A stretch of 64,000 nt of DNA, from assembly GCF_000317575.1 (NCBI RefSeq), contig NC_019748.1, positions 62,001-126,000 on the forward strand, given 5' to 3'. This DNA comes from Stanieria cyanosphaera PCC 7437. Its GTDB lineage: Bacteria; Cyanobacteriota; Cyanobacteriia; Cyanobacteriales; Xenococcaceae. The stretch's first letter is position 1. Every line of letters starts with the position of its first letter. Below the pieces are notes generated by a model. It made no database searches, was not told the DNA's origin, and saw nothing but the letters and a program-made list of their open reading frames with translations. This document shows positions 54,642 through 61,243 of the stretch, one piece after another. A program made the translations under genes and the position numbers.

Positions 54642-55553
54642 ATGAAAAATTGGAAATTAAAACAAAAATTTACAATCTTCCTATTAGCAATTTTGCTGAT
54701 TGGACTAACTTTAGTTGGTGGCGCATTAGCTACTGTTCTTAAACTTGCTACAGAAAACGAAATTGCTTCTCAGGCTTTAATTCTAATGGAAACAATGAAC
54801 TCGGTGCGGGAATATACCAATAATCAAATTAAACCAGAATTAATTGACCGAATTGACACAGAATTTTTACCAGAAACTATTCCTGCTTATTCTGCTAGAG
54901 AAGTCTTTGAAACTTTAAGACAGAAAAATACTAATTATCGCGATTTCTTCTATAAAGAGGCTACCATTAATCCATCTAATTTAAGAGATAAAGCCGATAA
55001 TTTTGAAAAAGGATTAGTTGAAAAATTTATTACTAATAAAAATAACAAAGAATTAACTGGATTTCGCTCTGCTCCTAGTGGCAAATTATTTTATATTGCT
55101 CGTCCCATTCAAATTACCCAAGCAAGTTGTTTAGAATGTCACAGTACTCCCGAAGCTGCACCTCCTAGTGTGATCGAAAGATACGGTTCAGTCAACGGCA
55201 TGGGTTGGAAACTGAATGAGATTGTAGGAGCTCAAACAATTTCTGTCCCTGCCAAAACAGTATTTGAGCGCGCTCGTCAATCTTTTATTTTGATTATGGC
55301 AATTATCTCTTTAGTTTTTATTGCAGTTATTCTACTCGTAAATTACTTGCTAAATCGTAATGTAATTCGTCCTTTAAATAGAATGGCAAGAGTAGCTGAA
55401 GAAGTAAGTACAGGTAATATGGATGCAGAATTTGCACAAACTTCTAAAGACGAAATTGGCAATTTAGCAGAAGCTTTTAAACGGATGAAATTAAGTTTAG
55501 CAATGGCAATGAGCCGACTTAGTCAAATCAATAAATATAAAAGAGAGCAATAA
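54642..55553 (+). CDS. membrane c-type haem sensor with HAMP domain (DUF3365/Tll0287-like)
   Basis: A 303-residue protein with an N-terminal membrane helix (residues about 11-30), an extracytoplasmic DUF3365 domain that ends with one c-type haem site (CLECH) in QASCLECHSTPEAAPPS near residue 166, a second helix (about 210-232) and a cytoplasmic HAMP domain (NRMARVAEEVSTGNMDAEF). It stops soon after the HAMP helix and has no kinase or cyclase. It resembles the cyanobacterial haem protein Tll0287, implicated in redox sensing. The output partner is unknown. Confidence 0.85.
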   Translation: MKNWKLKQKFTIFLLAILLIGLTLVGGALATVLKLATENEIASQALILMETMNSVREYTNNQIKPELIDRIDTEFLPETIPAYSAREVFETLRQKNTNYRDFFYKEATINPSNLRDKADNFEKGLVEKFITNKNNKELTGFRSAPSGKLFYIARPIQITQASCLECHSTPEAAPPSVIERYGSVNGMGWKLNEIVGAQTISVPAKTVFERARQSFILIMAIISLVFIAVILLVNYLLNRNVIRPLNRMARVAEEVSTGNMDAEFAQTSKDEIGNLAEAFKRMKLSLAMAMSRLSQINKYKREQ

Positions 55554-55560
55554 AGTTATT

Positions 55561-57027
55561 TTAAGATAATAATTTTCGTTTAAATTGAATTGCTTGTTGA
55601 GCATCGGGTATTTGTTCTGCTAGTGCATCAATCAAAGCTTCGGGAGATCTCGGCGCGTATTGAATTAAAATTTCTTCTACTATCAACGATGCCATTGGCC
55701 CAATACAATAAGCTAAATCTTGCTGACATCGTTTAATAAATTTGGGATCGAGCGAAGCTACAGGAGTGGAATTAGCTCTAGATGAACTAATTGATGTTTC
55801 CTGAGGATTCTGAGGTTGATTTGATAATCTTCTTTGATCAGATTGGGTAGAATTAACAATCATCGTCTCTTCCAAAGGATTGGTAGAAGAATTTGATGGT
55901 GACCAATCATTAACTAATTTAGTTTCTTCAATTAATGGTAACGGTTGAGCAGAAGATTGTGGAGATGAAGTAGAAGGTTTAATATTTTCTACTAATCTTG
56001 TTTCCTCTACTGAATGAAAAGAAGCAGATGAACGAGGTGAAACGGGAGTCGAAGCAGAACTAACAATAATAGTGTCTTCGTTTTGCAGTGGAATTGGTTG
56101 AGGATTTATTTGTGAGGGCGAAGAAGTCGGAAATGTCAAAGGTTGACCATGATTAAGTTGTTGAAGATTGAGTAAAACTTCTTGTACAGACTGATAACGT
56201 TGTAGCGGTCGGTCGGCAGTCATTTTATCCAGAATTTTACCAAATGCCGAGCTAACAGTGACATAATTACGCCATTGCCATTCCAAAGAATATTGGTCAA
56301 GCAACATAGTTGGTTCTCTTCCTGTTAACAAAACAATTGCTGTGACTCCTAAGGAATAAAGATCGCTACTAGGAGAACAACGACCCATACTAATCTGTTC
56401 TCTAGGAGCATAGCCAATTTTGCCCACAAAAGACATTTTCCCCACATAGGATTGATGATGAGAACTAGTTTGTTCTTCTAATAAAGAAATGTTAGTTAGT
56501 TTTCCTACACCAAAATCAATCAGGACTGGTAGTTCTTCACCATTAGGTTTCATAATATTGTCAGGAGAAATATCGCGATGAATAATACCACGTTGGTGAA
56601 TATACTCTAAAACTGGTAATAAATTCATCAACCATTGAATTACCTCTGGTTCAGCAAAACTTGTACCCTGTTGTCTTCTTTGTTTGAGTAAAGCAGAATA
56701 AGTCTGACCATTAACGTACTCTTGAACTAAAAAAAGTCGTCCTTGTCCTTCAAAACAAGCTAAAAACTTAGGAATTTGAGGATGGATAATTTGATGTAAA
56801 ATTTTAGCTTCTCGTTTAAAAAGTTCTCTTGATTTTTCTAGGTCGTATTGCCCAGAACCAAAAGGAGCAAATTCTTTTAAAACACAAGGTTCGTTAAAAC
56901 GATGGGTATCAAAGGCGAGATAAGTACGGCCTAATCCACCTTGACCTAAAATTTTCTGAATCAGATAACGATTGTCAATAATTGTGCCAAAAGGTATCTC
57001 CTCTTTACCTACTATTGAGTTAGACAT
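55561..57027 (-). CDS. Ser/Thr protein kinase with repeated TxxV linker motifs
   Basis: A 488-residue soluble kinase. The kinase domain (residues about 20-285) has the glycine loop LGQGGLGRTY, Lys51 in CVLKEF, the catalytic loop HRDISPDN near 150 (Ser where Lys is usual) and DFGVGK near 171. A Ser/Pro-rich linker (about 300-430) holds four copies of (E/D)-T-x-x-V, at Thr 319, 343, 369 and 388, spaced 24, 26 and 19 residues apart. The C-terminus is a small helical domain. ATG at 57027 is chosen over a TTG three codons earlier. It is divergent from the double-FHA ABC transporter, whose FHA domains could bind these threonines once phosphorylated. Confidence 0.88.
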   Translation of the reverse strand: MSNSIVGKEEIPFGTIIDNRYLIQKILGQGGLGRTYLAFDTHRFNEPCVLKEFAPFGSGQYDLEKSRELFKREAKILHQIIHPQIPKFLACFEGQGRLFLVQEYVNGQTYSALLKQRRQQGTSFAEPEVIQWLMNLLPVLEYIHQRGIIHRDISPDNIMKPNGEELPVLIDFGVGKLTNISLLEEQTSSHHQSYVGKMSFVGKIGYAPREQISMGRCSPSSDLYSLGVTAIVLLTGREPTMLLDQYSLEWQWRNYVTVSSAFGKILDKMTADRPLQRYQSVQEVLLNLQQLNHGQPLTFPTSSPSQINPQPIPLQNEDTIIVSSASTPVSPRSSASFHSVEETRLVENIKPSTSSPQSSAQPLPLIEETKLVNDWSPSNSSTNPLEETMIVNSTQSDQRRLSNQPQNPQETSISSSRANSTPVASLDPKFIKRCQQDLAYCIGPMASLIVEEILIQYAPRSPEALIDALAEQIPDAQQAIQFKRKLLS

Positions 57028-57318
57028 TCTTTTCAAACTCCCGACTGGTATTGCTGCTGCTATTTTTATTTAACCCTCTACAGCTAATTTAACTTAACTT
57101 TCAAGGTATTTTTTTGAAATTTCAGTAAGCTTAAAGATGATTGTATGATTAAAACTGTAATTTACTTAACAATTAGTAGGTTCGATCAGATAGTTTGATG
57201 CAGTATTTGCTCAGTAGCAAGAAATTAAAAAAAATCAATCAGAAGTAAACAAAGAGCTTTTTACCTGTCATAATTGCAGAAATTCTCATTGTCAGAATCA
57301 TTCCTAACCCCGAAGCCA

Positions 57319-59745
57319 ATGACTGGTAGTTTTGCTAGACAAACTGTTGTTAATACCGACCCGTTTATTGAATTAAGCAATGAAGGGCAAGCTCCAATCC
57401 GCTTTTATCTTAAAAAAGAGATTAATGCAATTGGTCGTGATCCTCAATGGTCAGATCTAAAAATACCAGAAACAGGTTGGACAGTTCTTTCCAGAAAACA
57501 AGCTGTAATCGAACGAGAAGGTAATGACTTTCGGATTTATGATGGCGATCGCACTAATCCCAGTCGCAATGGTATTTTTATTAACCAGACTCGCATCAAT
57601 GTTACTCAGGGATACCTGCTCAAAAATGGCGCGCAACTACAAATAGGTCAAGACCCCCGCTATCAGATTAACTTGACTTACCATAATCCTAGTGGTAGTC
57701 AAATGACGATGCCGACTAAACGTCGTTTGAGCTTAAAAGATTTAAAAGAGTGGCCTGTTGAGTTGGGAAGAGCTCCTCGTCCTAATTATTATTCTTCGAT
57801 GCAATTGGATGCTCCGACGGTTTCTCGTTTACACGTGACTATTTATCCAGATAGCAAGGGAGGACATATTCTGCATGACCATAGTACTAATGGTACTTTC
57901 ATTAATGGTAAACGATTAGATAAACGTAGTTTACTTCATCGTGGCGATACAATTCAGATTGGTCCATTTATTTTACTATACACCGGGGATGCTCTTGAGT
58001 TAAACAACGCTACCCATCAAATTCGCCTGGATGCTCACGAATTATTACGCAAGGTTAAAGATAAAAAAGGTCAAGAAAAAATTATCCTCAATAACGTTTC
58101 TTTAGTACTTGAACCTGGACAATTAATTGCCTTAGTTGGGGGAAGTGGTGCTGGAAAATCTACTTTAATGAAGTCTTTATTAGGTATTGCTCCGACTAAT
58201 TCAGGCAAAGTTTATCTTAATGGGGATGATCTTAGACAAAATTGGGCTATCTATCGTTCTCAAATTGGTTATGTACCTCAAGACGATATTATCCATCAGG
58301 ATTTAACGGTAGAAGAAGTTTTGACTTATGCTTGTCGTCTTCGTCTTCCTCCCGATATTGATATTCAAAAAATTGTTACCAAAACCTTAGAACAGATTAA
58401 ATTGTCTCATGTACGTCATACCTTAGTACACAGACTTAGTGGCGGACAAAGAAAGAGAGTCAGTATTGGCGTAGAATTACTAGCAGATCCAAAACTATTT
58501 TTCCTTGATGAACCTACCTCTGGTCTTGATCCTGGTTTAGATAAGGAAATGATGAATTTATTAAGGGAATTAGCCGATCAAGGTCGAACAGTAGTATTGG
58601 TTACTCATGCTACTGGTAATATTGAGGCTTGCGATCGCTTGACTTTTATGGGCTTAGGTGGTAAGTTGTGCTATTTCGGACCGCCTCAAGAAGCTTTAGA
58701 TTTTTTTGAAATGCCCTCAGAAGATTTTAAATATTTCGCCGATATTTATATCAAATTAAATGAAGGAAAAAATGAGGCAGATATTAGTAAGGTGGTAGAC
58801 CGATGGGCCCATAAATACCAGCGTTCTCCTCAATATTATGCTTATATTGCCACCTCTTTAACTGAAGGTAAAGACGAACAACAAACTACGGACGCTTCAG
58901 TTAGAACCGGCATTTCTCCTTTAAAACAATTGTGGCTACTATCTCAACGCTATTGGAAATTAGTCAATCGCGACCGCGTTAGTTTAATTCTAGCTTTAAT
59001 TTCTGGTCCAATTACGATCGCTTTAACAGCACTATCGCTTCACAACGAAGAACCCTTAACCAAATTAGCTACTCCAAGTATTACCCAAGCTCCCCTAGCT
59101 TTAAAATTACTATTTATTTTTAGTTGTATTGCCATTTGGATTGGACTGTCAAACTCAATTCGAGAAATTGTCAAAGAATTCGCTATTTATTTTCGCGAAC
59201 GACTATTAAATCTTGGTTTGCTACCCTATATTAGTTCTAAATTATTAGTACGTAGTGCGATCGCTTTGATGCAAACGTTGCTAATTACGATTGCTGTCTT
59301 GATTGGGTTCGCTTCGCCTGAGTCTGAGTTAATTCCCTGGTCAATTGGATTTGGTATTACTACTCTTTTAACTTTAATCGCTAGTTCTGCCCTCAGTTTA
59401 ATGTTATCAGCTTATGTCTCCACAGAAAATGAAGGGAATGGCATTCTTCCTCTAGTCATGATTCCTCAAATTATTTTCTCTGGTGTACTGTTTAATTTAG
59501 ATGGTTGGTCACAAAAAGTTTCTTGGTTAATGTTAAGTCGTTGGTCAATTGGAGCTTATGGCGCACTCGCTGATGTCAACGCTATGGCACCAGAAAATAA
59601 CTCCTTTGCCGATATTTTTCAAACCTCCGATGTTTATCAAGCTACTTGGGATAATTTGGCTTTAAATTGGGGAATTTTAGGAGTTCACACGTTTGCCTAT
59701 TTGTTGATCACTCTGATTTTGCAAAAACGCAAAGATATTTTTTAA
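57319..59745 (+). CDS. ABC transporter with two N-terminal FHA domains
   Basis: A fused half-size exporter of 808 residues. FHA domain 1 spans about 20-110 (IGRDPQWSDL, then RNGIFINQTRI) and FHA domain 2 about 150-230 (LGRAPRPNYY, SRLHVTI and HSTNGTFINGKRL). The ATPase domain follows with Walker A GGSGAGKST at 274-282, signature LSGGQRKRVSIG and Walker B LFFLDEPTSGLDP, then an ABCG-type six-helix membrane domain (about 535-800). FHA domains bind phosphothreonine, so transport is probably gated by a Ser/Thr kinase; kinases flank it on both sides. TTG at 57274 is an alternative start. The mycobacterial Rv1747 has the same architecture. Confidence 0.92.
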   Translation: MTGSFARQTVVNTDPFIELSNEGQAPIRFYLKKEINAIGRDPQWSDLKIPETGWTVLSRKQAVIEREGNDFRIYDGDRTNPSRNGIFINQTRINVTQGYLLKNGAQLQIGQDPRYQINLTYHNPSGSQMTMPTKRRLSLKDLKEWPVELGRAPRPNYYSSMQLDAPTVSRLHVTIYPDSKGGHILHDHSTNGTFINGKRLDKRSLLHRGDTIQIGPFILLYTGDALELNNATHQIRLDAHELLRKVKDKKGQEKIILNNVSLVLEPGQLIALVGGSGAGKSTLMKSLLGIAPTNSGKVYLNGDDLRQNWAIYRSQIGYVPQDDIIHQDLTVEEVLTYACRLRLPPDIDIQKIVTKTLEQIKLSHVRHTLVHRLSGGQRKRVSIGVELLADPKLFFLDEPTSGLDPGLDKEMMNLLRELADQGRTVVLVTHATGNIEACDRLTFMGLGGKLCYFGPPQEALDFFEMPSEDFKYFADIYIKLNEGKNEADISKVVDRWAHKYQRSPQYYAYIATSLTEGKDEQQTTDASVRTGISPLKQLWLLSQRYWKLVNRDRVSLILALISGPITIALTALSLHNEEPLTKLATPSITQAPLALKLLFIFSCIAIWIGLSNSIREIVKEFAIYFRERLLNLGLLPYISSKLLVRSAIALMQTLLITIAVLIGFASPESELIPWSIGFGITTLLTLIASSALSLMLSAYVSTENEGNGILPLVMIPQIIFSGVLFNLDGWSQKVSWLMLSRWSIGAYGALADVNAMAPENNSFADIFQTSDVYQATWDNLALNWGILGVHTFAYLLITLILQKRKDIF

Positions 59746-59812
59746 TTTTTAACTAAACTTAGTAATTCTTGGACTAGGCGAAGATCATAGCCATTTAGAA
59801 TTATCAGTAAAA

Positions 59813-61243
59813 TTAAAGTAAACGAGAAAGTAACTGATAAATTAAACGAAATACGGCTACTACTCCCATTACTCCTGCTGCTGCCATTACCCCAATCATA
59901 AAAATAGATTGTATGGCTAAATATCCTTGTAACAAAGGAATAAAATAAATAATTGCAGCACTAATTCCAGCAATAATTAACAAGTCAACTTTTTCAATAA
60001 TTCGGCGAAGTTGAGCAAAAATTAATCCACCCAAAATCATTCCCCAAATCCCAATAATGATATTGGAGCTAAGATTAAAAGTAGCTAGACTAGTCAAAGC
60101 AATATATAGTAATGCTCCTTCAAACCCCGTAAAAGCTGCACTAGCCAGAATTTCTAACAGGGAAAATTGCGGTAAAGATAATTGTATTTGTCTTTTCGGC
60201 TTACTGGAAATTGGCGGTGGTGGTGTTGGTGGTTGAGGTGTAATTGCTTGGGGTTGATTAAACTTTGGTTGGTTTTGAATGATAGAAAGAGTATTTAGTG
60301 CTTCTAAGACTTCTGTTGCAGATTGAAACCTTTCTGAAGGGGTAGGTAATAACATTCTGTTCAAAATCTTAGTTAAGCGATCGCTTGTCTGGGGTGCATA
60401 ATCTTGCCATTGCCAACAATTTTTGTAGTAATCATACATTTGTCCGGCTGGTTTACCTGTTAGTAGATTGATACAAGTAGCTGCTAAAGCATAAAGATCT
60501 GTGGAAGGATAAACCTGTGCGCCAGCCATTTGTTCGGGAGGAGCAAAACCCATCGAATAAATCCCTGTAGATTTGCCTGGAGTAGGATTATTGGCATTAG
60601 CTGCTACCTGTTTAACTGCACCAAAATCAAGTAAATATAATACCCGACTGCGATCGCGCATAATATTGGAGGGTTTAATATCACGATGAATCGAATTTTT
60701 TTGGTGAACAAATTGCAGAATTTTGAGAATCTCTATCAGTATTTCTGTTACTTCGGCTTCGGAAAAAGTTCCTTGGTTAGCTAAGAGAGTTTCTAAATCT
60801 TGTCCGTCAATATATTCTTGTACCAGATAAAAATACTGTTCTTCTTGATTACTTGTACTACTGGGAACTATCAGCGGAAAAAAAGCAAATAAATCGGGAA
60901 TTTGTGGATGTTTATTGCCTAATTGTTCCAGCACTTCTGCTTCACGTTCAAACAAACTTTGGGCAACAGCTAATTCTTGAGGCGTGAGATTTCCCGCAGG
61001 TTGAAACTGCTTAACTACACATTCTCGCATAGCAGGAGTATGGCGATCGCGAGCTAAAAAAGCTGCTCCAAATCCACCTCTACCTAGTAATCGCAAAGGA
61101 AGATAACGACCAGCCAAAATTAAAGGCATACCGCAACTTGTACAGTATTTTCCCTGGATAGTTTTTAGTTTAGTCGCATCGTCAAGGTCACTAAAAAAGT
61201 TACGCGGACGCGGACAATTAGGTCGAGTGCAGAGAATTTCCAT
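59813..61243 (-). CDS. membrane-anchored Ser/Thr protein kinase with zinc-ribbon head
   Basis: A 476-residue kinase of the cyanobacterial type. It opens with a Cys4 zinc ribbon (CTRPNCPRP, then YCTSCGMPL), has the kinase domain at about 45-310 (LLGRGGFGAAFLARD, Lys in CVVKQF, HRDIKPSNIM, DFGAVKQV, and PPEQM as the APE equivalent), a Pro-rich linker, and three or four C-terminal membrane helices (about 370-470). It converges on the FHA-ABC gene with 67 bases between stops. ATG at 61243 gives the zinc-ribbon start; a TTG at 61255 precedes it. Confidence 0.9.
   Translation of the reverse strand: MEILCTRPNCPRPRNFFSDLDDATKLKTIQGKYCTSCGMPLILAGRYLPLRLLGRGGFGAAFLARDRHTPAMRECVVKQFQPAGNLTPQELAVAQSLFEREAEVLEQLGNKHPQIPDLFAFFPLIVPSSTSNQEEQYFYLVQEYIDGQDLETLLANQGTFSEAEVTEILIEILKILQFVHQKNSIHRDIKPSNIMRDRSRVLYLLDFGAVKQVAANANNPTPGKSTGIYSMGFAPPEQMAGAQVYPSTDLYALAATCINLLTGKPAGQMYDYYKNCWQWQDYAPQTSDRLTKILNRMLLPTPSERFQSATEVLEALNTLSIIQNQPKFNQPQAITPQPPTPPPPISSKPKRQIQLSLPQFSLLEILASAAFTGFEGALLYIALTSLATFNLSSNIIIGIWGMILGGLIFAQLRRIIEKVDLLIIAGISAAIIYFIPLLQGYLAIQSIFMIGVMAAAGVMGVVAVFRLIYQLLSRLL

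Follow-up and report, generated by a model that had tools for sequence, protein, structure and literature searches.

The arrangement considered here has several described relatives. In the PknG system of Actinobacteria, the kinase has a disordered extension at its N-terminus whose threonines, once autophosphorylated, anchor the FHA domain of GarA or OdhI, and the FHA substrate has a motif of its own, the ETTS peptide (PMC8546545). In Mycobacterium, PknF phosphorylates Rv1747 on threonine, in an interaction that requires both of the FHA domains of Rv1747 (PMC3908365). A disordered linker connects those two domains, and the protein forms condensates that depend on PknF and on phosphorylation (PMC9312465). 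In DgcB, an FHA-GGDEF protein of Bdellovibrio, a phosphothreonine tail (LEKpTSIV) binds the protein's own FHA domain, the valine at +3 fitting a depression on the FHA surface; GarA, OdhI, and DgcB have FHA ligands of a common pattern, hydrophobic at -3, Glu at -2, and hydrophobic at +2/+3 (PMC6733907).

The locus described here lies within a stretch of 64,000 nucleotides (the window), part of a chromosome of 5,041,209 bp in a cyanobacterial genome (G000) of six contigs and 5.54 Mb, with Xenococcaceae/Pleurocapsales as its closest named relatives. As with PknF and Rv1747, a kinase gene adjoins the gene of a double-FHA ABC exporter, and the exporter is organized like Rv1747, with two N-terminal FHA domains, then a nucleotide-binding domain and an ABC2-type membrane domain, all on one chain. 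The known phosphorylation sites of Rv1747, T150 and T208, are on the exporter, whereas the motif array reported here is on the kinase, and the two genes are divergent rather than in an operon. Also unlike Rv1747, the exporter has no disordered linker between its FHA domains; it has instead a motif in its N-terminal tail. The kinase resembles PknG (with GarA or OdhI) in possessing an extension with several threonines, which in our case is predicted to be disordered and would contain the sites of phosphorylation, and just as the PknG substrate has its ETTS motif, the candidate clients here have tail motifs of their own. However, the sites in PknG are N-terminal and poorly conserved in sequence, while those described here are C-terminal, tandem, nearly identical copies of the GarA type, next to an FHA exporter. 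Furthermore, PknG has TPR and usually rubredoxin domains flanking the kinase domain. Pfam finds neither beside the kinase domain of the array kinase, which has instead a helical C-terminal domain that matches no Pfam family. DgcB shows the same preferences at -3, -2, +2, and +3, but has a single motif acting in cis and no kinase array, while here the kinase carries tandem copies. A preliminary description of the locus considered docking on the kinase to be a new variant. Docking of this kind has precedents in PknG with GarA/OdhI and in PknF with Rv1747; what appears to be new is a tandem array, conserved in sequence, on a kinase beside an FHA exporter.

Results

The gene at 55561..57027 (reverse strand, 488 aa) encodes what is, judging from its sequence, a Hanks-type Ser/Thr kinase, possessing a Pkinase domain (E=3.7e-33) and the catalytic Lys, HRD, and DFG. 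These residues (K51, H150-R151-D152, and D171-F172-G173) are invariant in the 24 relatives compared. The Pkinase match and AlphaFold2 put the catalytic domain at residues ~20-290 (56158-56970). The AlphaFold2 model, built on a 24-sequence alignment, is mostly confident in the kinase domain and shows a small helical C-terminal domain at ~428-487. Between the two domains is a Ser/Pro-rich linker (residues 291-425; 55753..56157, reverse strand), predicted to be disordered (pLDDT ~30-35 over residues 295-424) and impossible to align except at its motifs. No membrane segment is evident in the protein. The C-terminal four-helix domain (residues 426-488; 55564..55752, reverse strand) is conserved but has no convincing match in Pfam or NCBIfam. 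This helical domain of ~63 residues (FIKRCQQxLAYxIGPMAxLIxEE...) is common to many cyanobacterial kinases and is doubled in those of L052-L055.

Four motifs of the form (E/D)TxxV lie in the linker, at exactly the threonines that the preliminary description gave: DTIIV at Thr319 (context EDTIIV; 56062..56076), ETRLV at Thr343 (EETRLV; 55990..56004), ETKLV at Thr369 (EETKLV; 55912..55926), and ETMIV, followed by Asn, at Thr388 (EETMIV; 55855..55869), all on the reverse strand. The last is the best-conserved copy. A fifth, degenerate ET site in the linker, Thr411 (PQETSISS), was missing from that description and is not conserved. The remainder of the linker is Ser/Pro-rich, as had been claimed; the full 135 residues contain 12 Thr, 29 Ser, and 17 Pro.

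One might suppose from this composition that the array is an accident of low complexity in a Ser/Thr-rich linker. But shuffles of the 135-residue linker give on average 0.009 instances of (E/D)T-x-(I/L/V)-V (at most 2 in 20,000 shuffles), compared to the four seen, and the background in 1,154 other proteins from related loci (419,869 aa) is 0.016 per 135 aa, a figure that extends to the genome as an estimate from loci and DNA patterns, not from the full proteome. At least three motifs inside 120 aa are found in none of the 1,154 non-kinase proteins from related loci. Shuffles and protein background thus rule out an accident, and the motif is kept where the rest of the linker varies; the probability that remains to this explanation is negligible. 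No comparable array was found in the ~30 other kinases of G000 that were examined.

The linkers of orthologous kinases are hypervariable in both length and sequence. The conservation of the linker threonines, on which the preliminary description had depended, is nonetheless borne out, as the motif is retained in 1-4 copies, with the consensus hydrophobic-[ED]-[ED]-T-x-I-V-N. Strict motifs number 18 in 11 kinases of the array clade, against 0.08 expected, bearing in mind that counts over related genomes are not independent and that some loci are the same contigs retrieved twice. In a tree of kinase domains, the array kinases make up one supported clade (99/95) of 13 members, all from f1, the family (as defined by the search tool) that contains G000. 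Relatives from other families keep the C-terminal domain and lack the array, a few having the looser ETIF/TVFN or ETTII. The kinase linkers of L036, L038, and L039, which have no FHA-ABC neighbor, contain TVFN and ETIF, similar to the N-terminal tails of FHA-ABC proteins elsewhere (TVFG/TVFN).

How well do these motifs resemble known FHA ligands? Amongst 25 instances from the array clade (a tally that leaves out two matches that are not motifs, NSSTNPLEE and NSSTQPLEE), position -3 is hydrophobic in 18, where the background is 20%; position -2 is E/D in 23; position +2 is I/L in 23; and position +3 is V in 21 and V, L, or M in all 25. The kinase motifs therefore agree at all four positions with ligands of the GarA/OdhI/DgcB type. 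This agreement seems to us the strongest evidence for the idea of FHA docking and suggests that the idea is right in kind. Since the motif is kept in an otherwise variable linker, matches the ligands of GarA, OdhI, and DgcB, and is absent as an array from the other G000 kinases examined, the best reading is that FHA domains dock on the kinase. We consider it probable, though well short of assured, that the linker serves as a multivalent platform for such docking.

An evident candidate to dock there is the product of the divergent gene (57319..59745, forward strand, taking the conserved start ATG at 57319; ORF 57274-59745). Domain searches agree with the earlier view of this gene as two FHA domains fused to an ABCG-type exporter: in the matches, the pair of FHA domains is followed by an ABC ATPase and then by an ABC2 membrane domain, an ABCG-like order. 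The match to an NCBIfam pigment-permease model (E=7e-62) falls below the cut-off of the model. FHA1 (57430..57648, forward strand) keeps GR, S, and NG, but the customary His of SxxH is replaced by Gln, a point against the docking platform. FHA2 (57763..57963, forward strand) keeps all of the core FHA residues, and its best sequence match in the PDB is an FHA domain of Rv1747 (6cah). The positions of the Arg, Ser, and Asn that contact phosphothreonine are present in both, and a fold search returns the FHA domains of Slr1951, GarA, OdhI, Rv1747, and DgcB. The segment between FHA1 and FHA2 is short and mostly well predicted. Near the N-terminus is the motif QTVVN (57340..57354, forward strand; Thr at 57343-57345), only a loose match, since +3 is Asn where the ligands have a hydrophobic residue and the Thr has nothing acidic before it. 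T-phi-phi occurs in 30/36 aligned N-terminal tails of orthologous exporters, compared to a mean of 2.8 after shuffling.

With four ligands in a disordered tail and two FHA domains per exporter chain, kinase and exporter might go further and form a membrane cluster scaffolded by the kinase, a phosphorylation-dependent condensate like that of Rv1747, whose condensates depend on PknF (PMC9312465). This would be a stronger form of the docking platform. Most orthologous kinases, however, have only ~2 motifs, and the segment between the FHA domains of the exporter is short, unlike that of Rv1747. A cluster of this sort strikes us as unlikely.

The gene neighborhood favors the exporter as a partner of the kinase, up to a point. 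FHA-ABC is the divergent neighbor in nine members of the array clade, and all nine kinases have the motifs or close variants. The converse expectation, that TxxV motifs are kept only where FHA-ABC is a neighbor, fails: three members of the clade (G265, G068, and G150) retain 2-3 motifs although FHA-ABC has relocated away, while L077 and L078, loci of kinase and FHA-ABC from a family other than f1, have no array. Within the array clade, G120 has neither the FHA-ABC neighbor nor the array. The loss of adjacency fits a single event, in a four-member subclade (weakly supported, 86/81) of which three members keep the array. At an outgroup locus (L035), FHA-ABC is 1.5 kb off and the kinase has a single ETTII. 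In family f31, a relative of the kinase, FHA-ABC, and a Tll0287-like gene occur together, without the array. Given the motifs that persist without the neighbor in G265, G068, and G150 and the association without the array in f31, adjacency is neither strictly tied to the array nor dependent on it. Kinases adjoin a minority of FHA-ABC loci, and no ET-phi-phi arrays were found in kinases of other subfamilies beside FHA-ABC in distant cyanobacteria. One candidate array, at L117, was rejected, as its two regex matches do not form an array.

Other genes flank the pair. A Tll0287-like membrane protein with CxxCH and HAMP (54642..55553, forward strand) is a recurrent neighbor, adjoining this group of kinases in several families. 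It has no output domain, and it could supply sensory input to the kinase. On the other side, converging on the exporter gene, is the second kinase of the preliminary description, a membrane Ser/Thr kinase with a 4-Cys prefix and a hydrophobic C-terminal half (59813..61243, reverse strand). It is present as claimed but does not belong to the conserved unit: at a locus from the same genus (L023), an epimerase-like gene stands where it would be. Since it is not a conserved neighbor, this kinase was ruled out as a component of the unit, and it is probably an incidental neighbor. A lipoprotein resembling periplasmic binding proteins, not adjacent in the window, recurs beside loci of kinase and FHA-ABC (L024:3477-4355, L034:9460-10320, L035:10408-11280, L077:11549-12493, and L078:6538-7533).

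The motif also occurs away from the locus. A DNA-pattern search of G000 for [ED]T[IMV][IMV]-phi-N gives six in-frame matches within ORFs, of which only the kinase linker and the tail of a small FHA protein look disordered; the rest appear folded. The small FHA protein (L123; G000:C1:687799-688341) ends in the tail KDTIILNSDEI. Of 293 genomes, 26 of the 27 in f1 have it and practically none outside that family. The motif is present in 23/25 of the tails, with 34 copies compared to 0.6 by shuffling; some orthologues have two or three copies, in tandem in L134, L135, L137, L138, and L146. The tails average ~1.0 copies in genomes with the array kinase and 1.6 in those without (p=0.05, uncorrected for phylogeny), a slight difference on which we build nothing. 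A small FHA protein with C-terminal tail motifs resembles GarA/OdhI turned round. Separately, in an FHA-PAS-GGDEF protein (L013, G000:C1:841730-841954 region), KKTVINKETLINF lies directly behind the FHA domain, recalling the phospho-tail of DgcB.

The motif thus appears to be associated with FHA proteins in general, which bears on another explanation, that the motifs are merely the sequence that the kinase prefers to phosphorylate. Autophosphorylation would then tune its activity or the conformation of its tail, with no FHA docking, and a shared catalytic specificity would likewise put T-phi-phi on the tails of both the kinase and its substrates. Nevertheless, the pattern at -3, -2, +2, and +3 equals that of crystallized FHA ligands, and those disordered tails, other than the kinase's own, where the motif turned up belong to FHA proteins. 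We think this explanation improbable.

Since the tails of FHA proteins contain similar motifs, one cannot simply take the exporter for the array's only partner. Moreover, the relocated exporters of G265 and G068 no longer have the motif in their N-terminal tails, yet the kinases still bear the array; in these two genomes at least, this speaks for a different client. Perhaps the platform serves mainly the small FHA protein, acting as an adaptor like GarA or OdhI, and the adjacency of FHA-ABC is secondary. That protein and the array clade belong to one family, no other copy of the motif is closer than that in the protein's tail, and the array persists where FHA-ABC is no longer adjacent. On the other hand, tail motifs occur as well in members of f1 that lack the array kinase, and no gene-neighbor link from the small FHA protein to the kinase was found. 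We hold this possibility to be somewhat unlikely.

Discussion

Docking of FHA proteins on the kinase, the reading we prefer, can be put in terms of a mechanism. The kinase would phosphorylate the Thr of [ED]-T-x-I-V in its own tail, and FHA domains would bind the phosphorylated motifs, so that FHA substrates are delivered to the catalytic domain in the manner of PknG with GarA and OdhI. Chief among the candidate clients is the double-FHA exporter encoded by the divergent gene, and the Thr of QTVVN in its N-terminal tail would be the substrate. Once phosphorylated, that tail might engage the exporter's own FHA domain or a neighboring one, so that the exporter is gated or clustered. A second likely client is the small FHA protein restricted to f1.

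The preliminary description had the array recruiting or gating the exporter. Consistent with this, the motif is conserved and similar to FHA ligands, and the exporter gene adjoins that of the kinase in nine members of the clade, but an exclusive pairing of kinase and exporter is only partly supported. The array looks like the kinase's part of a wider system of FHA ligands, with at least two candidate partners. One may speculate that [ED]-T-x-I-V-N constitutes a lineage-specific phosphothreonine code, by which the array brings in an FHA-gated exporter together with a dedicated small FHA adaptor, the adaptor having tail motifs of its own, and that kinase, exporter, and adaptor form a single multivalent cluster dependent on phosphorylation. 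We view so broad a scheme as fairly unlikely.

To our knowledge, few clients of Ser/Thr kinases have been identified in cyanobacteria. Here, a conserved motif that can be read from sequence ties one of the more than 30 kinases of G000 to specific FHA proteins, so the prediction of clients is directly testable. If true, FHA docking on the tail of a kinase would extend from Actinobacteria to a cyanobacterial exporter.
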